Source: Janthinobacterium sp. J1-1
GTDB lineage: Bacteria > Pseudomonadota > Gammaproteobacteria > Burkholderiales > Burkholderiaceae_D
NCBI RefSeq assembly: GCF_030944405.1
Contig: NZ_CP132339.1
Span: 5,456,001 to 5,520,000, forward strand
Direction: 5' to 3'
DNA: 64,000 bases
Shown here: positions 37,426-47,169 of the stretch, piece by piece
Position numbering within the stretch: the stretch's first letter is position 1
How the letters are laid out: every line of letters begins with the position of its first letter
Translations under genes and position numbers: made by a program
Notes under the pieces: generated by a model
The model's database searches: none
What the model was told of the DNA's origin: nothing
What the model saw: the letters and a program-made list of their open reading frames with translations, nothing else

Positions 37426-38463
37426 TCATACGTGAGGCAACAAGGTAGCTACTTGCCTGATCCGCTGCGCCACGCTGCCCGTCACATCGACATACGCAAT
37501 CCCCCGCCGCGCCAGCTCTTGCTGGTACCACGCATGCTGGCGCGCGCGAAAATCCTCGTCGCGGCGCGTGCCGTCCTGGATAAACGGGAAGTCCGGTGCG
37601 CACAGCAGCACCAGGTCGTAGCGGTGTTCGGCCAGCCGCGCCAGTTCCGGCTCGGCCTTGCCGAACATCTCGACGCAGTAAAAGTAAGTGGTCATGGGCG
37701 AGGTGTCGCAGAACAGCCAGCGCCGCGCCTGCCCTGCCGCCAGCTCCTCGCGCCTGAGCTGTTCGCGGCCGATTTTCAGCAGGTCATCGTAGGCCAGCAC
37801 GCCGTCCTGGCTTTCCCACAGTTCGCGGCCGTATTCGGCCACCCAGGCGGTGTCGAAATGGGCGGCCAGCGCGGCGGTGAGCGTGGTCTTGCCGCTCGAC
37901 TCGCCGCCCAGCACGCAGATGCGCGTGACCAGGCTGGCGTAGACCAGCGGCGACAGAAAGGCGCGCTGTCCATGCGGATCAAAGCGCACCGCCGTGCCGG
38001 ACACCGGCACCAGTGTTCTCGCCTGGTCGACGCTGACATGCGCCACTTTTGAGCTGGCATAAAACTCGCCCAGCACATCGGCAAAACCGGGGCCATAGTC
38101 CTCGCTGCTAAATACCACATCGACCGGCAGCTTCAACACCGTCCAGCATAGCCAGCCCATAAAGTGGCGGTGCACATCGCCATCGTCGAGGTCATTGTGC
38201 GGCAAGGTGCGGGCCGCGACGCCGCGCACCGCGCACAAAGCCGCCAGGCGCTCGTCATCGAGCACGACGACGCTTGCCTGCGGATACAGCGCGCGCAGCC
38301 ATTGCTCCCTGCGCGCTGGCTCGATGCCGGGAAATTCGGGCTTGGTATAGCTGACGATCAGCAGTTCTTCGCAGGCGTCCCGGGCGCGATTGATCAGAAG
38401 TTCATGGCCCTGGTGCAGCGGGCAGAATTTGCCCACCACCAGGCCGCGTTTGTAAAGGTTCAT
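37426..38463 (-). CDS. nadR: Bifunctional NadR: NMN adenylyltransferase / ribosylnicotinamide kinase
   Basis: A 345-residue two-domain NAD-salvage enzyme. The N-terminal nucleotidyltransferase has the GxFxPxHxGH motif (GKFCPLHQGH, residues 11-20) and would form NAD from NMN and ATP. The C-terminal kinase has a P-loop GGESSGKTT at residues 186-194 and would phosphorylate nicotinamide riboside. The helix-turn-helix repressor part of E. coli NadR is absent. Its ATG overlaps the stop codon of the upstream PaaK-like gene (ATGA), making it the last gene of a seven-gene coupled operon. It could serve NAD salvage generally or belong functionally to the operon. Confidence 0.9.
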   Translation of the reverse strand: MNLYKRGLVVGKFCPLHQGHELLINRARDACEELLIVSYTKPEFPGIEPARREQWLRALYPQASVVVLDDERLAALCAVRGVAARTLPHNDLDDGDVHRHFMGWLCWTVLKLPVDVVFSSEDYGPGFADVLGEFYASSKVAHVSVDQARTLVPVSGTAVRFDPHGQRAFLSPLVYASLVTRICVLGGESSGKTTLTAALAAHFDTAWVAEYGRELWESQDGVLAYDDLLKIGREQLRREELAAGQARRWLFCDTSPMTTYFYCVEMFGKAEPELARLAEHRYDLVLLCAPDFPFIQDGTRRDEDFRARQHAWYQQELARRGIAYVDVTGSVAQRIRQVATLLPHV

Positions 38464-39836
38464 GCCGCCGCTTCCTGCAAATCCGAGGTGTATTGAATGA
38501 TCTTGTCTTCCGCCAGCAAGGCCGCCACCGTGATGTCGCCGAAGAATGGCGCCAGCAAGGCGCAGGCCTGGGGCGCCTGCGCCATGGCGCCAGGCGCCAG
38601 GCGCAGCACGATGGAACCATCCTGCCGCTGGTGCACGCCGAACAGTGCGATGGCCAGCGGTTTCAGCGCGTGCGTGATATCTATATTGTTGATCCATGCG
38701 CCGCTGCTGCTGCGGTAGCGCAGCGGGCTGCGCCCGGCCAGGCCCACCAGCACCGGGCCATGCGGGCCGTGCGCCAGCGAGGCATGGTCGCCGGTGCGGT
38801 AGCGCAGCAGCGGCAGGCAGAAATTGAAGCCACCGGTGACCGTGATTTCGCCACGCACGCCATCGGGCACCGGCCTGCCGTCGCCATCGAGAATTTCCAC
38901 ATACAGCCGGTGCTGCAGCAGCACATGGCCGCCGGCCGCTTCATCAAACACGGCGACCGGCCCCACTTCATTGAGCGAATAGATATCGAGCACGGGGCAG
39001 TTGAACCGCTGCTCCAGCCGCGCGCGCATGCCCGGCAACAGCATCATCGAGACCGACATCAGGGCGGCCGGGCGGTGCGTCATCGGTATGTTGAGCAGCT
39101 CGGCAAACGAGATCGGGTCGCCCGCGATCAGCTCGGGCGCCATCGCATCCAGGTACCTTGCGCGGTCATCGGGATGGCGCCAGTCGTCAACGTGCAGGTT
39201 CAGCTTGGCCAGCCCCGATTCGCCCATGGTCGGTGTCACCGAAACATAGGTGAAGCAGCGGCGCTGGTGCCCCAGCAGCATCACGCCCACCTGCCCCGCG
39301 CCATGGCGCAGTGTCACGCCAAAACGCTTGAGCGCGCGCTTGTGGAAGGCCAGGTAACGCCCCGCCACCACCGGGTGCGAGGCGATCAGCAGCGGGTGGC
39401 CCGTCGTTCCCGTGGTATGGAAGTTGATCATGCGCGCCAGGTCGGCGTCGTCCGGCACGAATGCGGCGATATCGTGCGACAGGTCGGCCCGGCTGATGGG
39501 TGGCACGTCGAGCAGCCGCGCGGGTGGCGAACCGCAGGCGCGGTAATGCGGCACGGTAGTCCAGGCATGGCGCAGGAAGCCGGCCATCCAGGCTGGCGGC
39601 TGGGCCGGCCGCCAGCCGATGACGGCGTCCATCACCTCCTGTTCATATGCGCGCAAGGCGTCCACCTCGCCGGCCAGCAGCTTGTTGCCGCTGCGGTTGC
39701 TGTAAACAGGCGCCGCCGGGTGGCTGCGCAAGTGAGCCAGCATGCGCCGGCCCGCCTGCGTCAGGGTGGGACAGTAATCGAGGTCGCTGTCCCAGGCGCC
39801 GGCAGGCAGGTTCGCGTCACTATGCAACAAGGTCAT
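38460..39836 (-). CDS. PaaK-like adenylate-forming enzyme
   Basis: A 458-residue member of the phenylacetate-CoA ligase-like branch of adenylate-forming enzymes. The phosphate-binding loop is HTTGTTGHPLL at residues 140-150; the second motif is YSLNEVGPVAVFDE and the hinge region is LPLLRYRTGDHASL. It should activate a carboxylate as an acyl-adenylate; whether it goes on to CoA or to another acceptor is unknown. The ATG at 39836 overlaps the upstream stop codon (ATGA) and I prefer it to one four codons earlier. In this operon it follows MoxR and VWA genes and precedes nadR, an uncommon context for a PaaK homologue. Confidence 0.82.
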   Translation of the reverse strand: MTLLHSDANLPAGAWDSDLDYCPTLTQAGRRMLAHLRSHPAAPVYSNRSGNKLLAGEVDALRAYEQEVMDAVIGWRPAQPPAWMAGFLRHAWTTVPHYRACGSPPARLLDVPPISRADLSHDIAAFVPDDADLARMINFHTTGTTGHPLLIASHPVVAGRYLAFHKRALKRFGVTLRHGAGQVGVMLLGHQRRCFTYVSVTPTMGESGLAKLNLHVDDWRHPDDRARYLDAMAPELIAGDPISFAELLNIPMTHRPAALMSVSMMLLPGMRARLEQRFNCPVLDIYSLNEVGPVAVFDEAAGGHVLLQHRLYVEILDGDGRPVPDGVRGEITVTGGFNFCLPLLRYRTGDHASLAHGPHGPVLVGLAGRSPLRYRSSSGAWINNIDITHALKPLAIALFGVHQRQDGSIVLRLAPGAMAQAPQACALLAPFFGDITVAALLAEDKIIQYTSDLQEAAA

Positions 39837-40426
39837 TCGCGCGACCATTTGTCGGCCGATTCCTGGGCCGCTTTTTTGGCCAGCGCCTCGCGGATCTCGC
39901 GCGAGCGCTGTTCCGCCACGCGGCTCGCCTCCAGCAGGCGGCGCCGCTCGGTGCCGCTGATCGCGGACAGCCGGTCGATGGCTTGCGCCTCGCTTTCGTC
40001 ACGGGGACGAAAACCCAGGCGCGCCAGCACGATGCGCGCCAGTTCCTCGCGCCGCTCGGGGTCCTGCGTGTATTGATGCGCCGGCGACGCCGCCGCCAGC
40101 TCGCGCGCCGCCTCGCCCAGCACCTGCAGCACATCTTCCTGCGCCAGCTTGCCCTCGACAAACCAGTCGTCGGCCAGCAGCCAGCACATGATCATTGCCA
40201 GCGCCAGGCGGTTGCGGTCGGCCTTGACCTGGGCGCCGTGAAAGCCCTGCAGCGAGGCGGCCGGCGCGCGCGCGCCGTGCAGCAGCAGGATATCGTTGAC
40301 CAGCGCGGCCACCGCCACGGCTTGCGGGTTGTGCACGCCGGCGATGCGAGGCTCGCGCAGGAATTCCGCAGGCGTGTCGGCCAGGCGGTGGGTTAATACT
40401 TCAAGGTGGGGACCGGAGTGATTCAT
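39833..40426 (-). CDS. Unrecognised protein of the MoxR-VWA operon, 197 aa
   Basis: I cannot assign this protein to a family. It is 197 residues, mostly helical, soluble and charged. The N-terminal part reads PAEFLREPRIAGVHNPQAVA; a middle Trp-rich helix MIMCWLLADDWFVEGKLAQE follows; the C-terminal 60 residues form a strongly charged probable coiled coil (REIREALAKKAAQESADKW). It begins 3 bp after the VWA gene and its stop overlaps the start of the PaaK-like gene. By position it should be a core part of the module, perhaps an adaptor. Confidence 0.75.
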   Translation of the reverse strand: MNHSGPHLEVLTHRLADTPAEFLREPRIAGVHNPQAVAVAALVNDILLLHGARAPAASLQGFHGAQVKADRNRLALAMIMCWLLADDWFVEGKLAQEDVLQVLGEAARELAAASPAHQYTQDPERREELARIVLARLGFRPRDESEAQAIDRLSAISGTERRRLLEASRVAEQRSREIREALAKKAAQESADKWSRE

Positions 40427-40429
40427 GCG

Positions 40430-42220
40430 TTAACTCTTCATATAGTGCCGCTGGCTGAACAGGCGCGCAAACTCGAGCAAATCCTCGTACTGCGCCACGG
40501 CATGGATATCCCAGCCCTGCTCGTCACGCGCGCGTTTCAGGGCGCCGAAGATTTTCTGCATCCAATGGGCGCCGCCATCCTGGTCCCAGCTGGTCGAGAT
40601 ATTGAGCGCCATGGTGCCGCCGGCACCGCCGTTCTCCATCGCCTTGGCCGAAATGTCCCAGCCACTGTTGCCCAGTTCATCCTTGTCAAACATGGTGGTG
40701 ATGCCGTCGTCGGAAATCATCAGGATATGCGTGGGCCGCTTGCGCTTGGCCGCATACGTCTCGCGCAGGCAGTGAATCGGGAATGCCGTGCCGCCGCCAT
40801 AAAAATCGGTCAGCACGCCGAGTATCATGTCTTCGTCGCGCACGAAACCGGGGGTGCGCATCACCTCGCGCTTGCCGCTCCATAAGGTCACCTGTACTGT
40901 CGAGCCGGCGCGCAGCGCGGACAGCGCGATCACGGCGCCAGCCAGGGTCAGCCAGGACGTGTGCTGCTGCGGGTTGGGCATGGAGCCGGAGCTGTCGACA
41001 TACATGTCCAGGTCAACGGGCATATGGTCGGCCTCGCGCGCCGGTTCGCGCCCATATTCGCGGCGCACGGTGGTCACGCCGGGGATGGGCCGCGGCGACT
41101 GCATCACCGATTGCAGCCAGTCGACGTCATCGAGCGGGTCGCCGATATCCCATGGCGACAAGCCTTCCATCTGCGGCTCGGTCGATTCGGGCGCCGGCCG
41201 CGAAGGAAAGCGCACCAGGTGCGGCAAGGCCCGTTCACGGTAATAGCGGATGGCGATTTCATGGTCGGTGAGGTCGATGCCGGACGCTTTTAAAATGTCG
41301 CCCAGCTCGAACGGCTCGCGCAGCTGGCCACCGCCCTGCTTCTGTGCCTTTTCCTCCGGTTCCTCGCCCACGGCATCGCCTTCGAGTCCCGAGATGCGCT
41401 TGTCGTGCACCGGGTGGATGGCGCCGTTTTCCTCGTCATCCTCGATCTGCTGCGCGCCATAGGTCTGGCAGCCGCGCGCCGCGTCGCGAGTGTCGTGGAA
41501 ATAGCGGCTCGGGTCAATGCCCTTCAAGGCGCCCGTATCGTCCACCAGGTAAGGCAGCAGCAAGGTGGCGAAGCGCCCCGCCGCCAGCATCCAGTCGTTG
41601 GCGTAGACGCGGATCAGGCGCGCGCCCAGCCAGGCGTCGGTATCGAGGCGTTCATCGGCGCCGTTATCACTACCTGCGCCACCCAGGTCCCCTTTCGGCA
41701 ACTGCCACAGGTTTTCATAGATGCGCATATAGAGCAGCCAGACCTTGCCTGGCGCCGGGCTGTCTGTCGCCTTGCCCTGTTCGAGCTTGCGGTAGATATC
41801 GGCCATGCGCAGGCCGGCCTGGCGCTGCAGGCGGTCGTTGATGAACAGGTCGGTGTACAGATTGGCCACCATCGGCGCATGCTGCTCCAGCGTCGGCAGG
41901 GCGCGGCGCATGCGCGCCAGCAGGCGGAACTGGTCGCCGGCGCTGCCGGGCGCCAGGATATGGTGGCCGATCTCGTGCGCCAGGATTTCCAGTCCATAGT
42001 CCTGCAGCCCCAGCTCCACCACCAGCGGCAGGTCGACCACCACACTCTGGTCGAGCAAGCGGATCATGGCAAAACTTCCGCTCAGGCCTTCCTTGCTGGC
42101 GGCCACGCGGCTGGCGCACAGGGCCGGGTCGCGCAGGCGCGTGAATTTGCTCCACACGTCCAGCGCCCGCGGCCAGGCGGCGCGCCATTGCGCGATCAGG
42201 TCGGCATGCTGGCCTCTCAT
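40430..42220 (-). CDS. Metallopeptidase-like / von Willebrand factor A fusion protein
   Basis: A 596-residue cytoplasmic protein with two recognisable parts. Residues about 50-140 hold a zincin-like motif HEIGHH (H82, E83, H86), followed by DLFINDRLQ that could give the third ligand. Residues about 255-300 are an acidic, low-complexity linker. The C-terminal 200 residues form a VWA domain whose MIDAS motif is DSSGS (D409 to S413), followed by LMISDDGITTMFD. The layout recalls DUF2201-type VWA-metallopeptidase proteins that pair with MoxR ATPases. Its ATG overlaps the stop of the upstream gene. It is the likely partner of the MoxR protein encoded in this operon. Confidence 0.85.
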   Translation of the reverse strand: MRGQHADLIAQWRAAWPRALDVWSKFTRLRDPALCASRVAASKEGLSGSFAMIRLLDQSVVVDLPLVVELGLQDYGLEILAHEIGHHILAPGSAGDQFRLLARMRRALPTLEQHAPMVANLYTDLFINDRLQRQAGLRMADIYRKLEQGKATDSPAPGKVWLLYMRIYENLWQLPKGDLGGAGSDNGADERLDTDAWLGARLIRVYANDWMLAAGRFATLLLPYLVDDTGALKGIDPSRYFHDTRDAARGCQTYGAQQIEDDEENGAIHPVHDKRISGLEGDAVGEEPEEKAQKQGGGQLREPFELGDILKASGIDLTDHEIAIRYYRERALPHLVRFPSRPAPESTEPQMEGLSPWDIGDPLDDVDWLQSVMQSPRPIPGVTTVRREYGREPAREADHMPVDLDMYVDSSGSMPNPQQHTSWLTLAGAVIALSALRAGSTVQVTLWSGKREVMRTPGFVRDEDMILGVLTDFYGGGTAFPIHCLRETYAAKRKRPTHILMISDDGITTMFDKDELGNSGWDISAKAMENGGAGGTMALNISTSWDQDGGAHWMQKIFGALKRARDEQGWDIHAVAQYEDLLEFARLFSQRHYMKS

Positions 42221-43167
42221 GGCAAGGGCAGCAGGCGGATCGCATGCGTGTAGGGCGAGGTGATGGCCAGCGTCTGCGCATTGGCGGCCAGCGCAATCTC
42301 GCCGGCCGGCAGGTCCGGCGCCAGCTGACGCGCGCCGGCCTGCACGGCGGCGGAGACATCGCCCGAGGCCTGTGCAAATTCGTCCGCGGTGGCGCCATGC
42401 AGCACGGCGCCGTGGGCATCGGCCACCAGCAAATAAAAGCGCTCGCCGGCGCTGACGATAAAGCCGTCATCCGTGGCGCGCACCAGCGGCGGCGTGGCGA
42501 ACTGGCCGCCGAGGCCGGCAAATGCGCCAAACTCGATGCCATCCGCATTGCCGCGCCAGGGCTGATGCAACAGTTCTGCGCGCAAGGCAGGCCAATCGAG
42601 CTGCGCCTCGCCGCATGCCGCCAGGGCCAGCGCCGGCGGCAAGGTATCGGCGGCGGCAATCGCGCCCAGGCGAAAATGCGCCACGCCGGCGCGCCAGGCC
42701 AATACCTGGCCGACCGCACGCAACTGCCCCAGGGTAGCCACCTGCGGCGCGATGGCGGCCATCTCGTCCTGCCACTGGCCCGTACGCGCGCCAGGCACCC
42801 CGCCCAGGTGGATGGCCGCGTTGCTCAGCATGCCCAGCGCATCGACGGGCATTACCGCCAGCAGCGGCGCAAAGCGCGGCGCCAGTTCACGCCAGACGGC
42901 GCTTAAAAACGGATTTTTTGCCGCCGGTCCGGCCAGGCCATGGCCGACCAGTTCCAGGGCCATGTCGTAGGCGGCCAGGGTAAAGCTGCCGGCGCGGTCG
43001 GGGGCAGCGGCCGCCACTGCCTGCACCACCGGATCGACGCCATCCTGCAGGAACGCGCCAAAGGCCTGCATGTCGAGCGAGGTGAAACGGCGCCGTGCTT
43101 CCAGCGCGCGGGCATTGAACTGAGCGCGGCCACCGGCCAGGATCGCGGCGAAGGACGATGAAATCAT
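42217..43167 (-). CDS. Unrecognised protein of the MoxR-VWA operon, 316 aa
   Basis: No family recognised. A 316-residue Ala/Gly/Leu-rich protein with no clear signal peptide; the first half is helical (RRFTSLDMQAFGAFLQDGVD, then TLAAYDMALELVGHGLAGPA) and the second half is predicted beta-rich (DGFIVSAGERFYLLVADAHG). The segment AIHLGGVPGARTGQWQDEMA is a likely loop region. It starts 3 bp after the 155-residue gene and its stop overlaps the VWA start (ATGA). The repetitive Ala content gives helical heptads, and a role as a solenoid substrate-binding or adaptor subunit is possible but unproven. Confidence 0.75.
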   Translation of the reverse strand: MISSSFAAILAGGRAQFNARALEARRRFTSLDMQAFGAFLQDGVDPVVQAVAAAAPDRAGSFTLAAYDMALELVGHGLAGPAAKNPFLSAVWRELAPRFAPLLAVMPVDALGMLSNAAIHLGGVPGARTGQWQDEMAAIAPQVATLGQLRAVGQVLAWRAGVAHFRLGAIAAADTLPPALALAACGEAQLDWPALRAELLHQPWRGNADGIEFGAFAGLGGQFATPPLVRATDDGFIVSAGERFYLLVADAHGAVLHGATADEFAQASGDVSAAVQAGARQLAPDLPAGEIALAANAQTLAITSPYTHAIRLLPLP

Positions 43168-43170
43168 GGC

Positions 43171-43638
43171 TTAATCACTATGCGAAAAATGCAGCAGATA
43201 GCGTTCGGCGCCACGCACAAACGCGATCTCGTCCCAGTGGATGGCGTACCACATGGGCGGCGCCATGGTTACCGAATGAGCGTCGAAGCCGTCCAGCGCC
43301 TGGTCCAGCGCTTCCAGAAACGCCGCGGCCAGGTTGGTGCGAAACTGGCCGGCAGGTGCCGCCTGCATGTGCTGCGACGAAAAAAACCAGCGCTGGCACA
43401 CCTGCTGCAACTGCGCGCGCGGAATCGGCGTGGTGGCGATCTGCCACAGCGGCGCAGACAGTTCGCGCGAGGGACTGATCTGGTTCCGCGCATGGTCTTC
43501 CACGCGCAGGCCGAGCGCCGTGGCGAGATCGGGCGCGTCGGGCAGGCGCACGATCTCGTAACTGGCGCACAGGTCGCTCGCCTCGGAGTTGAGCAGCGCC
43601 AGCGCGTCGAGAAATCCCTGGCAATAATCGCAGCTCAT
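43171..43638 (-). CDS. Unrecognised protein of the MoxR-VWA operon, 155 aa
   Basis: No family recognised. It starts MSCDYCQGFLDALALLNSEA; the CxxC-like pair C3/C6 could bind metal or be redox-active. The rest is mixed helix and strand, ending in a Trp/aromatic-rich segment (VTMAPPMWYAIHWDEIAFVR) and HFSHSD. I chose the ATG at 43638, which overlaps the MoxR stop codon (ATGA), over one five codons earlier. It is the second gene of the operon, directly after the ATPase. Confidence 0.72.
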   Translation of the reverse strand: MSCDYCQGFLDALALLNSEASDLCASYEIVRLPDAPDLATALGLRVEDHARNQISPSRELSAPLWQIATTPIPRAQLQQVCQRWFFSSQHMQAAPAGQFRTNLAAAFLEALDQALDGFDAHSVTMAPPMWYAIHWDEIAFVRGAERYLLHFSHSD

Positions 43639-45215
43639 TGCGAACGCAGCCACGTGCGGTAATTGGTATAGCGCTGGTGCAGGTACTTCAGTTTCAGCAG
43701 GTCGTCGTACAGTGGGCCATACAGCTTGCGCCCCTTGGTCCGTTCGCCGATCAGCTTTTCGATGCGGTTCAGCCGCGCCAGCGTATCGCGCTCGCTCAGG
43801 CCATCGAGACCCAGGTCGAATTCGGCGGACAGCACGCCGACCGGATCGTCGCGGTCCAGGTTCAGGCGGTTGTATTCATCGTTGGACAAATCGAACAGGC
43901 GGCGCAGCCAGCCCAGCCTGTCGCTGCGGTAGGCGGCGTTTTCGGGCAGCGCAAAGAACGGCGCGTCGAGGTCCGGCTGCAGCTTGTTGTGCAGCACGAA
44001 CGGCAGCACCTGGCGCAGGTCTTCCAGCGCCACTTCGCCGTTGCCGCGGAAATAAGCCATCGCCTTGGCGTAGATCAGCAGCGCCATCAGGGTGCGCACC
44101 GAGATGCCGTTCAGGGTCTGGCAGCCGAGGTCCTTCAGGCGGTCGCGCCCGTTGTCGGCCGCCTGCGCGGCATTGCGGTCGGCGCCGGACAGGCGCGCCG
44201 TATCCTTGGTCATGTATTCGAACTGGCCGCCGGCCGTCTCGAACAGCTCGAACTGGCTGGCAAAAAATTCCAGGCGGCGGCGCACGGCGTCGGGCACTGC
44301 CACCTGGCGGATATCGTTGCCGATCTGGTCCACTTCGCTTTCCGTGAAGATGATATCGGGTGGCACCAGCTCTTCCGGCCGCACGTTTTCTTCCACGCGC
44401 AGCAGCAGTTCGTTCAAAAAGCGCGGGTTGAACGCCAGCGCCTGCACGGTCACGTCGACCCGGTCGCGCAGCGCCTCGATCACCTGGTAGGTGCCGCCAC
44501 CCTGGTCGTCGTTGGCCGTCAAATACCAGGCCGCTTCCGGGCATTCGTAGATATGGTTCAGCACTTCCGCGTAATTGTCACCCATCACGGTCAGCAGCGC
44601 GCTTTGCGTGCGCGTGGGGATGCGGTTGTATTCGTCGACGATTTTCACGCGCATGCCCAGCCAGGCGCGCCAGGCGATGCGGATCTCGTCCATGCTTTGC
44701 GCGTTGACCAGGTCGGCCGGCAGCGGATTGCCCAGCAAATCGGCGATCGTCATCTGCGGATGGCCATGCTGCATCGCCCGTTTCACTTCTTTCACCGACG
44801 ACCCGGCCAGCACTCCCATCAACAGCGCGCTGGCCGTCTTGCCGCGGCCAGGACCGCCGACAAACAGGCATTTGCGGCGCGTGGCAAACGTCAGCAGCGG
44901 CAGCAGGATAAAACTCGAATAGCTTTGCGCCGATGGCAAATTCAGCGTGCGCCGGCTGTCGCCCACCATATAGGTTTGCGACGGCCCGTCGTTGTATTCG
45001 ATATCGTAATGGGGGCTGATAATGGCGTGGTTGACGATCCAGAAATAGGCCTGGCGCAGCTTCTCGTCAAACGGCCGCGTGGTGCTCTCACCCTCCCCGC
45101 CCAGCGCCACCGGCCCCTGGTACAAGTCCGCCACATCGAACTGCCGCGCGGCGGGCGCCGTCTTGGGTTTGGTGGGGGCTTGCGAGAGGCGCTGGAACAG
45201 ATTAAAAGGCGACAT
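43635..45215 (-). CDS. MoxR-type AAA+ ATPase
   Basis: A 526-residue AAA+ protein. Walker A is GGPGRGKT (residues 120-127), Walker B is VKIVDEYNRIP with D194/E195, and sensor 1 is the Asn of YLTANDDQGGGT; the arginine-finger region lies near EALRDRVDV. An N-terminal 100-residue extension and a long C-terminal helical region make it larger than a minimal MoxR (about 330 residues). MoxR ATPases usually remodel or activate metalloproteins together with VWA partners. Here it is the first gene of a seven-gene operon that includes a VWA-metallopeptidase fusion. A likely promoter lies in the 74-bp gap before it. Confidence 0.88.
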   Translation of the reverse strand: MSPFNLFQRLSQAPTKPKTAPAARQFDVADLYQGPVALGGEGESTTRPFDEKLRQAYFWIVNHAIISPHYDIEYNDGPSQTYMVGDSRRTLNLPSAQSYSSFILLPLLTFATRRKCLFVGGPGRGKTASALLMGVLAGSSVKEVKRAMQHGHPQMTIADLLGNPLPADLVNAQSMDEIRIAWRAWLGMRVKIVDEYNRIPTRTQSALLTVMGDNYAEVLNHIYECPEAAWYLTANDDQGGGTYQVIEALRDRVDVTVQALAFNPRFLNELLLRVEENVRPEELVPPDIIFTESEVDQIGNDIRQVAVPDAVRRRLEFFASQFELFETAGGQFEYMTKDTARLSGADRNAAQAADNGRDRLKDLGCQTLNGISVRTLMALLIYAKAMAYFRGNGEVALEDLRQVLPFVLHNKLQPDLDAPFFALPENAAYRSDRLGWLRRLFDLSNDEYNRLNLDRDDPVGVLSAEFDLGLDGLSERDTLARLNRIEKLIGERTKGRKLYGPLYDDLLKLKYLHQRYTNYRTWLRSQ

Positions 45216-45289: not shown

Positions 45290-45967
45290 TCAGCCCGCCC
45301 TGACCCACCACTGCGGCACGCCGCCCAACTCGTCCACCATGGTGGTGTCCACATCGATCGACAGCCCATTGACGGTACCGGACTGCGGCTTTTGCATCAT
45401 CTGGTAGCCACGGCCCGGAATCGCCGGCACGGTGCTTTCCGAATGCCAGTAGTGCTGGAACGGCAGGTCGTACAGCTGCTGGCCGTCCAGGCCGCAATTG
45501 GCGCCCACATACAGGCCCGGCAGGTAGCCCTTCACCGACACCTCCTGAAACCAGCTGGTGCAGTAAGCGATCACGTCCTGTGGAGCCGCCCCGGCGTTGA
45601 CGCCCTCGAGGTCCAGCCAGACATTGACTTGTGGCGGCACGCCGATGGCCAGCGCCTGGGCCGCGGCGTTGGCGCCGTGTTCCTCGCCCAGTTGCGCCGT
45701 GGGCGACCAGCCCGGCTCCAGCACATGCTGCACCGGCATCAGCGCCAGCCCGCCGGCGAGGATGCCCTGCGCTTCGGCGGCGGTCAGGTCGCCCGGCGCG
45801 GTGCTTGCCTGCAGGGACAGGTAGCGCACGCAAAAACGGTAGCCCTGACTGGCAAACGCCTGTGCCGTGCCCTGGCTGATAATGCTGTCGGCGTCAAAGC
45901 CGAGGGAGTTGCCGGGTGCCGGCTGGACGGTTCCAGGGGAAGTTGTAAGGGACGGGTTGACTGGCAT
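45290..45967 (-). CDS. DUF1906 (Rv2525c-like glycoside-hydrolase-type) protein
   Basis: A 225-residue protein of the DUF1906/Rv2525c group, a TIM-barrel family related to GH25 muramidases. It reads NSLGFDADSIISQGTAQAFA, then GYRFCVRYLSLQAS, followed by PQVNVWLDLEGVNAGAAPQD with the acidic pair on a strand end, and PGLYVGANCGLDGQQLY. The ATG at 45967 has GAGGA upstream. No signal peptide is evident. It lies 74 bp upstream of the MoxR gene on the same strand and 68 bp from the exporter operon's end, so it could be a separate unit. Enzymatic activity is unproven. Confidence 0.78.
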   Translation of the reverse strand: MPVNPSLTTSPGTVQPAPGNSLGFDADSIISQGTAQAFASQGYRFCVRYLSLQASTAPGDLTAAEAQGILAGGLALMPVQHVLEPGWSPTAQLGEEHGANAAAQALAIGVPPQVNVWLDLEGVNAGAAPQDVIAYCTSWFQEVSVKGYLPGLYVGANCGLDGQQLYDLPFQHYWHSESTVPAIPGRGYQMMQKPQSGTVNGLSIDVDTTMVDELGGVPQWWVRAG

Positions 45968-46035
45968 GGCTATCCTCGCAAAGATGATTGATCGGCCATT
46001 GATCGTATCATCTGCCCGCGAAAAATAAAGCCCGG

Positions 46036-47169
46036 TCAGCTGGTTTTTTCTTCCCTGCGCCAGCGCCGCCATCCCAGCGCCAGGCACGCCAACAGCAAGC
46101 CCAGCAGCCCTGCCACTTCATGGCGTATTTCGTACACCGAGGCGCCCATCTGGTTCAGCGCGACAAAACCCTGGATGCCGGCCGTCGATGGCAGCAGCCA
46201 GCGCAGCCATTGCAGCACAACCGGCATCGAGCTCACGGGCCAGGTCAGGCCGGCCAGGAACAGGACCGGCATCGAGGTGGCGATCATCAGCTGCGTGCCC
46301 CGTTCGCGCGTGCGAAACAGCATCGCCAGCAGCATGCCGAAGGCCGCCACCGTCAGCGAAAACAGCGGCAGCAACAGCAGCAAGCCGCCAAAATTGCCGC
46401 CGCGCGGATAGTCCTGGAACCAGAACACGAAGCCGAAGAAATAGCAGCAGTTCAAAAAGGCGACCGAGGCGAACGCCAGCAGCATGCCCAGGTAGCCCCC
46501 TGCCGTGCGCGGGCCGGGCAAGGGAAACGTCTTGCGCTGGTACCATGTGCCGAACAACATGGTCATGCCGATCAACAGCGTCTGCTGCACGATCAGGGTG
46601 GCCACGCCCGGCACCACGTAGGCGCCATAACCCTCCTTCACATTAAACAGGGGCACGGCGTCGAACGCGACCGGCGCGCGCTGGCCGTTCGCCTGGTAGC
46701 TCGATGGCGTGGCGGCCGCCAGGCGTTTCAGTTCGATGCCGGCAGAGACCGTGCCCACCACTTCGGCCAGTCCATTCAGCGCCACCTTGTTGAGCATCAG
46801 GTACAGGCCATTGCCGGCCACCTGCGCCTGCGCCGCGCGGCCGGCCAGCACCTCCGTCTGCAAGCCTTCGGGGATGATCAGCACGCCCATGACGTCACCG
46901 CGCCACAGCAGGTCCTGGGCGGCGGGCAGCTCGGGGGTGACGGCCACCACGTTCAAGGCCGGATGGGCCATGGCAAAGCGCGTCAGTTGGCGCGACATGC
47001 TGCTGCGATCCTGGTCGACCACGGCCACCGGCACCCGCTGCACCACTTCCTTGGTGTAGGGCAGCGGATAGAAGAAGGAATATAAAACACCGCCGACAAA
47101 CAGCAGGGTCAAGGCGCCCTTGTCCGTCAGCATGGCGCGCCAGGTGGACAGAAATGCTTTCCACATCAT
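46036..47169 (-). CDS. ABC-2 type exporter permease (YhhJ-like)
   Basis: A 377-residue permease of the ABC-2 group: one N-terminal membrane helix (ALTLLFVGGVLYSFFYPLPY), a large periplasmic domain (about residues 40-190), then five helices, including GGLLLLLPLFSLTVAAFGML and the terminal MGASVYEIRHEVAGLLGLLL. It closes a four-gene exporter operon, starting by ATGA overlap with the preceding permease. Members export drugs or other small molecules together with a membrane fusion protein and a TolC-type channel. No ATP-binding site is present. Confidence 0.85.
   Translation of the reverse strand: MMWKAFLSTWRAMLTDKGALTLLFVGGVLYSFFYPLPYTKEVVQRVPVAVVDQDRSSMSRQLTRFAMAHPALNVVAVTPELPAAQDLLWRGDVMGVLIIPEGLQTEVLAGRAAQAQVAGNGLYLMLNKVALNGLAEVVGTVSAGIELKRLAAATPSSYQANGQRAPVAFDAVPLFNVKEGYGAYVVPGVATLIVQQTLLIGMTMLFGTWYQRKTFPLPGPRTAGGYLGMLLAFASVAFLNCCYFFGFVFWFQDYPRGGNFGGLLLLLPLFSLTVAAFGMLLAMLFRTRERGTQLMIATSMPVLFLAGLTWPVSSMPVVLQWLRWLLPSTAGIQGFVALNQMGASVYEIRHEVAGLLGLLLACLALGWRRWRREEKTS

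Follow-up and report, generated by a model that had tools for sequence, protein, structure and literature searches.

We analysed a window of 64,000 nucleotides of Janthinobacterium sp. J1-1 (the whole stretch from 5,456,001 to 5,520,000 of NZ_CP132339.1), in which seven genes follow one another on the minus strand from position 45215 down to 37426. The open reading frames (ORFs) bear out the order given by the first-pass annotation, that is, a MoxR-family AAA+ ATPase, a 155-residue protein, a 316-residue protein (C316), a VWA protein with an N-terminal HExxH domain, a 197-residue protein (E197), a PaaK-like adenylate-forming enzyme and NadR (Table 1). With corrected starts, adjacent genes overlap by 4 bases or stand 3 apart and, because of these 4-base overlaps and 3-base gaps, the seven genes look like one translational unit. 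Six of the seven belong to a widespread system, and the recurrence of its core exceeds chance. Regarding the starts, that of NadR was corrected by alignment to 38463, since the mechanical ORF of 423 residues extends into the PaaK gene, and the PaaK-like enzyme probably starts at 39836, in an ATGA that it shares with the stop codon of E197, rather than at 39848.

Table 1. The seven genes and their motifs (positions are those of the window; residues are numbered within each protein).
Feature	Position	Strand	Basis
MoxR-family AAA+ ATPase, 526 residues	43635..45215	-	AAA_3 and AAA_lid_2 above cut-off; MoxR in 67/69 testable loci
155-residue protein of unknown family, accessory	43171..43638	-	No Pfam family; some Janthinobacterium only
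C316, predicted scaffold	42217..43167	-	Helical-repeat domain (residues 4-201) and C-terminal beta-propeller-like domain (208-316)
VWA protein, 596 residues, with N-terminal HExxH (zincin-like) domain	40430..42220	-	Residues invariant in 30 divergent members
HEIGHH motif, VWA protein residues 82-87	41960..41977	-	Alignment
MIDAS-type DxSGS motif, VWA protein residues 409-413	40982..40996	-	Alignment
E197, all-helical with 39-residue C-terminal helix; proposed carrier	39833..40426	-	68/71 testable loci; AlphaFold
E197 C-terminal tail, last nine residues ESADKWSRE	39836..39862	-	Motif conservation across homologues
PaaK-like adenylate-forming enzyme	38460..39848, probable start 39836	-	67/71 testable loci; catalytic motifs
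NadR (NMN adenylyltransferase and ribosylnicotinamide kinase), 345 residues	37426..38463	-	AAA_28, TIGR01526; linked in 46/57 loci

The loci were collected with a profile built from 16 VWA homologues, and the best 80 of at least 101 confirmed loci, in named genomes, were retained; by construction, every sampled locus carries the VWA gene through which it was found. The sample is redundant (ten Janthinobacterium and many Flavobacterium) and holds many metagenome bins, some of whose labels may be wrong. These best 80 loci span the Pseudomonadota, Acidobacteriota, Chloroflexota, Planctomycetota, Verrucomicrobiota and Bacteroidota, and further ones among them come from the Actinomycetota, Myxococcota, Nitrospinota and Spirochaetota, one cyanobacterial bin and two bins of Sigynarchaeota (Asgard). 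For the gene order, per-protein profiles were compared with every ORF in the window and in the 80 loci, and a locus was taken as testable where enough DNA was present. C316 was found in 69/69 testable loci (for MoxR, E197 and the PaaK-like enzyme see Table 1). All five core genes occurred together in 58 of the 63 testable loci, and the order MoxR-C316-VWA-E197-PaaK was the same in 58/58, two of which carried the E197-PaaK pair twice. In the remaining five loci the set was incomplete: L049 and L065 had MoxR-C316-VWA only, L068 had C316-VWA, L053 lacks MoxR and L070 lacks the PaaK-like gene. The first-pass annotation had proposed that a system would be supported if five or more of the genes recurred together in distant genomes, and the five core genes do co-occur in this way and in a fixed order; moreover, PaaK-like and NadR genes stand beside MoxR-VWA outside the genus too, so the association is not the genus-restricted one that would have spoken against it. 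Free variation in order had been named as a further sign against a system: the five core genes are fixed, whereas NadR does shift its place, yet it stays linked (see below).

The pairwise distances of six proteins are correlated in all 15 pairs (r from 0.725 to 0.924; 0/1000 permutations equally high) when 18 near-duplicate loci are omitted, with 30 to 61 proteins per comparison, and part of this correlation is due to the shared ancestry of the genomes. Within the genus, the VWA gene, the full-length NadR and the PaaK-like gene mark the identical 29 of 37 genomes; three of the eight genomes without them are less than 90% complete. The system is rare in the sampled genomes: VWA was found in 5/274 genomes of the class, two of the five being weak matches over 96 columns, and the PaaK clade in 3/369 and 3/398 genomes, in 5/200 genomes of the order and in 1/5 and 2/43 of two families. 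The genome of the window is itself counted in 5/274, 3/369, 3/398 and 5/200, and the two family counts (1/5 and 2/43) likewise include the genome around which each family was drawn. The search from the PaaK side led to seven genomes outside the genus, four with VWA (G419, G438, G072 and G225) and three without it (G040, G341 and G989).

Regarding the labels, the loci L073 (labelled Alphaproteobacteria) and L084 (Anaerolineae) are almost identical, so one of the two bin labels is probably wrong, and L029, from an Acidobacteria bin, lies very near the Oxalobacteraceae loci on the VWA tree. Some loci carry additional genes. In two planctomycete loci (L055:7904-8923 and L063:7891-8901) a nucleoside 2-deoxyribosyltransferase-like gene (PF05014, just below the cut-off in L063) lies between MoxR and C316, and it is another nucleotide-linked partner. 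In an Anaerolineales bin (L048:8634-9974) a gene for an oxidoreductase dependent on flavin adenine dinucleotide (DAO) lies between C316 and VWA. At L070:13414-15717 a 768-residue protein with isochorismatase, TCAD9 and DSP-phosphatase domains adjoins E197 and replaces the PaaK-like enzyme. An apparent fusion protein of 382 residues (P0198) was rejected, because by eye the reading appears to continue in another frame.

NadR was linked to the system in the 46 loci of Table 1 on either side: 26 have it downstream, and in the other 20 it lies upstream, before MoxR. The upstream position is that of the Actinomycetota, Flavobacterium and one Alphaproteobacteria/Chloroflexota bin pair, and on the VWA tree, where 42 of 61 rows were labelled by hand, at least nine changes of its placement or presence are needed. 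This repeated relocation with the linkage kept is good evidence for a functional tie of NadR to the system. In the window its kinase domain is clear (AAA_28, 133.6 bits against a cut-off of 27), and the TIGR01526 equivalog_domain model is matched below its cut-off (165.5 of 341 bits), both with the 423-residue ORF. The nicotinamide-riboside transporter PnuC, a regular member elsewhere (31/57 testable loci, PF04973 being confirmed in two examples), is not among the seven genes of the window. A second PnuC gene does lie elsewhere in the genome of the window (G000:C1:880336-880863, L170), beside a gene that by eye resembles a TonB receptor, and two PnuC genes were counted in 29/29 system genomes of the genus against 1/8 of the others, three of these eight being less than 90% complete; we did not use the second PnuC as evidence, given the incomplete genomes and its distant position.

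The 155-residue protein, listed by the first-pass annotation as a member, is not supported as a member of the system and is rather an add-on: of the 11 sources with a Janthinobacterium label, the window among them, 8 carry its gene, against 0/70 of the remaining sources, and the Pfam search gave no family for it.

Among the core proteins, the MoxR of the window exceeds the cut-offs of AAA_3 (32.1 bits, cut-off 27) and AAA_lid_2 (27.8 bits, cut-off 22.7) and is thus a MoxR-class AAA+ ATPase. In the VWA protein, H82, E83, G85, H86 and H87 of the HEIGHH motif, which make it an HExxH protein, are invariant in 30 divergent members, and so are the residues D409, S411 and S413 (DxSGS) and D504 of the metal-ion-dependent adhesion site (MIDAS). 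Profile matches are weaker: the VWA profile scores 18.3 of 27 bits, VWA_2 is matched below its cut-off by the window protein and in 6/30 members, and 1/30 matches an M48 peptidase (E 0.0043). C316 of the window matched neither a Pfam nor an NCBIfam family at E 0.1; it is predicted with high confidence to combine helical repeats with a small propeller-like beta domain and is, on this model, a predicted scaffold. No NCBIfam model was found at E up to 0.001 for the MoxR, C316, VWA and E197 of a Flavobacterium, nor for the C316, VWA and E197 of a planctomycete. In MoxR-VWA pairs, the VWA domain has been proposed to capture a peptide and the ATPase to remodel the substrate (PMC7159879), and the action of MoxR-VWA machines is described as poorly understood (PMC13036017).

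The first-pass annotation had pointed to conflict or stress modules, and the set could be read as one more MoxR-vWA ternary system acting on invaders. The distribution is patchy, the helical repeats and propeller-like domain of C316 recall the third component of ternary systems with a beta-propeller (PMC7159879), and the gene adjoining E197 in L070 carries TCAD9, a 'ternary complex associated domain'. Nevertheless, no VWA homologue was found among 72,556 plasmid records, 50,697 phage records and viral contigs, no PADLOC family matched the 30 VWA members, no variable effector was recognised in the ORF tables and the gene set is much alike across phyla. PADLOC on eight window proteins touched a model with NadR alone (mad8, E 0.03). 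The PaaK-like enzyme gave ten plasmid matches, none with more than 73% coverage and all below 60% identity, and two viral ones at 37-38% identity over 91 residues, all of which we take for ordinary ligases. On the PADLOC outcome and the absence of VWA copies from the plasmid, phage and viral-contig searches we rejected the set as a defence system, and a role against invaders is very improbable.

The catalytic residues of the PaaK-like enzyme are well kept. E294, YRTGD (350-354) and R373 are invariant in 36 proteins and K449 is present in at least 90%, and these residues have catalytic roles in adenylate-forming enzymes. By these motifs it is an adenylate-forming (ANL) enzyme, although the AMP-binding Pfam model falls just below its cut-off in the window protein (29.8 of 29.9 bits). 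The nearest solved structure is 9s3l, a phenylacetate-coenzyme A (CoA) ligase (E 3.1e-24), and the scores with the curated families are far from their cut-offs, 42.4 of 646.3 bits for the PaaK equivalog (TIGR02155) and 67-102 of 300 bits in four members for DVU_1553 (NF045666), the window protein having 79. Because the HEIGHH, MIDAS and ligase motifs are kept, both the VWA protein and the PaaK-like enzyme are likely to be active. Regarding its position, 72 of 73 PaaK-like ORFs from 81 sources follow an E197, the exception being the second gene of a tandem pair in L072.

E197 itself was modelled by AlphaFold as an all-helical body (predicted local distance difference test 96), with a helix of 39 residues (158-196) that runs almost to the C-terminus. 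There, at the free end, it carries a motif of about (E)(A/S)A-x-K-(W/Y)-x-R-E. Out of 77 ORFs two were left out, as they are cut by contig ends, and in all the other 75 homologues the motif is the absolute end of the protein. It closes with Glu in 63, Tyr in 6, Val in 4, Asp in 1 and His in 1, and the residue before this one is Arg in 59. Among 54 E197 proteins, the mean pairwise identity is 53% in the last nine residues, 40% from -30 to -10 and 33% in the body. A DNA pattern for the Janthinobacterium type of tail, run against 61 genomes, matched once in every one of the 29 Janthinobacterium genomes with the system, once in G040 and in 0/31 of the others, and the reversed pattern gave no match in the same genomes; with a single match per genome, a general sorting signal was rejected. 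A DUF4158 match in E197 (25.8 of 27.4 bits, in 2/54 members), a region which we take to be that of Tn3 transposases, was rejected as chance. Covariation between tail position -2 and the enzyme (K215 in 37/37 against 3/11, D244 in 36/37 against 3/11) was not used as evidence, since the column L191 was stronger and the tree holds two or three independent pairs.

The location of the motif at a free C-terminus, beside an enzyme of a carboxylate-activating class, suggests the terminal carboxylate as the substrate. The tail would then be a carrier charged by the PaaK-like enzyme, with MoxR-VWA acting downstream, a reading to which we give slightly less than an even chance. Alternatively, the PaaK-like enzyme might activate an ordinary small carboxylate, the tail recruiting it to a client and MoxR-VWA maturing the complex as NorQD or CoxDE do. 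The enzyme keeps ordinary CoA or amide ligase motifs and has a phenylacetate-CoA ligase as its best solved relative, and a docking peptide would just as typically appear as a short motif at the end of different proteins. Such docking explains the same facts as the carrier does except the strict terminus in 75/75 complete homologues, which docking alone does not demand, and we regard it as rather unlikely.

The tail was also found on other proteins. A matrix built from the E197 tails was scored against 21,310 ORF ends from 94 sources, and the three best ends outside the E197 family were those of G040 (31.0 bits), G989 (21.0) and G341 (14.0), the next one having 8.5; the matrix is incomplete, since the lowest true E197 tail scores 3.6 bits. 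Each of these three ORFs sits directly upstream of a PaaK-like gene. In G040 the tail ends a hydrophobic protein of 332 residues immediately before PaaK-PnuC-NadR; in G989, from another genus of the same family, it ends one of 208 residues (...QNAADKWMRE) before the same three genes; and in G341 it ends one of 114 residues (...DGSDKYTRE) that overlaps PaaK. By a Kyte-Doolittle count they have four (G040), three (G989) and two (G341) long hydrophobic stretches, against none in the E197 of the window. No VWA gene was found by profile in the three genomes (best E 0.018 over 34 columns), nor by protein search in G040, and no MoxR or C316 in the stretches taken from them, which were the DNA searched for these two. 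G040 and G989 thus keep PnuC-NadR beside the pair of tail protein and PaaK-like enzyme without a VWA gene by profile, and the NAD (nicotinamide adenine dinucleotide) genes seem to belong with this pair.

Since the pair occurs without the machine in G040, G989 and G341, and the machine without the pair in L049 and L065, the tail-bearing protein and PaaK-like enzyme are separable from MoxR-C316-VWA, as two modules that are usually joined. The core of the system is then a tail-bearing protein and an adenylating enzyme, often with NAD salvage, and usually joined to a machine of MoxR, VWA and zincin-like domain. The same three genomes bear on protein conjugation. Pup and the proteasome offer a parallel for it, in that the PaaK-like enzyme would join the C-terminus of E197 to target proteins and the MoxR-VWA-zincin machine would unfold or cleave the conjugates. 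It fits the free C-terminal Glu of 63/75 tails on a long modelled helix, and also an operon that brings an AAA+ ATPase and a protease-like domain together with an activating enzyme. Nevertheless, the tails of G040, G989 and G341 are carried by hydrophobic proteins that have no MoxR, C316 or VWA gene in their vicinity and no VWA by profile in the genome, and we consider conjugation quite improbable.

To return to the carrier, it can be laid out in two parts. The carrier module would consist of the tail protein (E197 here) and the PaaK-like enzyme, whose tail and enzyme the comparison shows to be a constant pair and which are very probably dedicated partners, supplied by the PnuC/NadR route from nicotinamide riboside to NAD. 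The enzyme would turn the terminal carboxylate of the tail into an acyl-adenylate and then couple a small molecule or amine to it, giving a covalent carrier; that the adenylated group is the tail's own carboxylate is a tentative proposal, which could nearly as well hold as fail. NAD or an NAD precursor may be the co-substrate and, where present, radical SAM enzymes may modify the load. The machine would be the MoxR AAA+ ring, C316 as scaffold and the VWA protein with its zincin-like domain. Its VWA/MIDAS site would bind the loaded carrier, ATP hydrolysis would remodel the carrier, and the zincin-like domain would release the product or clip the tail; an action of this domain on tail or load is a possibility that we hold with some doubt. 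The suggestion of the first-pass annotation that MoxR-VWA is a machine and that a target is modified by the PaaK-like enzyme fits the observations, and the catalytic residues are kept; the likely target has changed to the tail of E197.

Several observations weigh against a carrier tail. In the Actinobacteria the tails end in Y, V or H (11/75), another one ends in Asp, and three planctomycete tails (L055, L064 and L066) are one residue shorter; these ends without Glu and these shorter tails argue against a need for the gamma-carboxylate or a motif of rigid form. L049 and L065 carry MoxR-C316-VWA without tail or enzyme in the sequenced stretches examined. NadR is missing in 11/57 testable loci, a fragment-like weak match in L033 being counted as absent, and the NAD genes are missing beside the G341 pair in a stretch of 19.9 kb. 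In the stretches examined around L123:8190-9814 (G048) and L126:6839-8456 (G041), PnuC-NadR pairs occur without the rest of the system, so this pair also has an independent life. Radical SAM genes are limited to 16/71 testable loci, in two positions and from two families, with three further loci that have less DNA. The tail protein of G341, which matches E197 in its last residues only, is that of a single genome, the only homologue found being an identical hypothetical protein of 145 residues from Chitinivorax sp. B. The last 55 or so residues of the G040/G989 type resemble E197 (E 0.00033) and, because of this resemblance of the tail region, these proteins likely share their origin with E197 and may not be independent. 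Finally, the tail could be a mere docking peptide, and we infer the reaction chemistry throughout.

In its widest form, a C-terminal carrier chemistry shared from bacteria to Asgard archaea, in which the tail end is charged and joined to a nicotinamide nucleotide or other amine, with possible radical SAM tailoring, delivery or release by MoxR-VWA-zincin and transplantation of the tail-enzyme pair onto membrane proteins, the proposal is speculative and we think it unlikely to hold as a whole. The MoxR-VWA neighbourhood does offer the nine-residue tail as a candidate substrate, along with a candidate enzyme for it. Should the tail prove to be charged, the carrier-peptide strategy would gain a further enzyme class, and proteins named 'hypothetical' or 'VWA domain-containing' in many phyla would gain a function.

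Directly upstream of MoxR, on the same strand, lies an Rv2525c-like gene of glycoside hydrolase type (PF08924, 95 bits) at 45290-46087, and no tested link joins it to the system.

The first-pass annotation knew of no described operon with this combination. The system is real, and we found no paper describing the combination in the open-access literature, subscription papers being mostly outside the search. Among known systems, NorQ-NorD and other metal-insertion chaperones have the MoxR and VWA pair in common with it (PMC9976466, PMC13036017), whereas here there is an extra zincin-like domain and a carrier module, and no nitric oxide reductase gene was recognised in the operons. Phenylacetate-CoA ligase PaaK and the DVU_1553 family share the adenylate-forming fold and motifs with the PaaK-like enzyme, which scores below their curated cut-offs. 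As in the MoxR-vWA ternary conflict systems, MoxR, a vWA partner and a third conserved component stand in one operon, and the helices and propeller-like part of C316 recall the third component of subsystem 4 (PMC7159879). Unlike in those systems, the vWA protein here carries a zincin-like domain at its N-terminus and yielded no propeller, and there are a near-constant adenylating enzyme, a tail protein and NAD salvage genes. VMAP, iSTAND and FtsH gave no Pfam match in the C316, E197 and VWA members, by Pfam families and not by the models of the authors of the ternary systems.

A known parallel in chemistry is that of the carriers loaded at their C-terminus. LysX, the ligase of the amino-group carrier systems, is an ATP-grasp enzyme, and the ligase beside the tail is instead an adenylate-forming, PaaK-like one. 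Among the genes scanned with Pfam no PEARL (peptide aminoacyl-tRNA ligase) was recognised, no profile specific for PEARL having been run. E197 differs from amino-group carriers in having no family match and in its Actinobacteria tails, which are not Glu-ended (11 Y/V/H in all, besides 1 D). The likeness is confined to the 63/75 tails that do end in Glu, the reported attachment point in LysW and Vzb22 being the gamma-carboxylate of the C-terminal Glu of the carrier (PMC9303977). In amino-group carriers and pearlins, activation takes place at the side chain of the C-terminal Glu or at the C-terminus and, once the load has been modified, the product is released by hydrolysis or proteolysis (PMC9303977). 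The pearlin peptides TglA and TmoA with their PEARL are alike in the chemistry at the carrier C-terminus and in proteolytic release, and the tmo cluster has a gene for a metalloprotease besides its radical SAM enzyme (PMC9303977).

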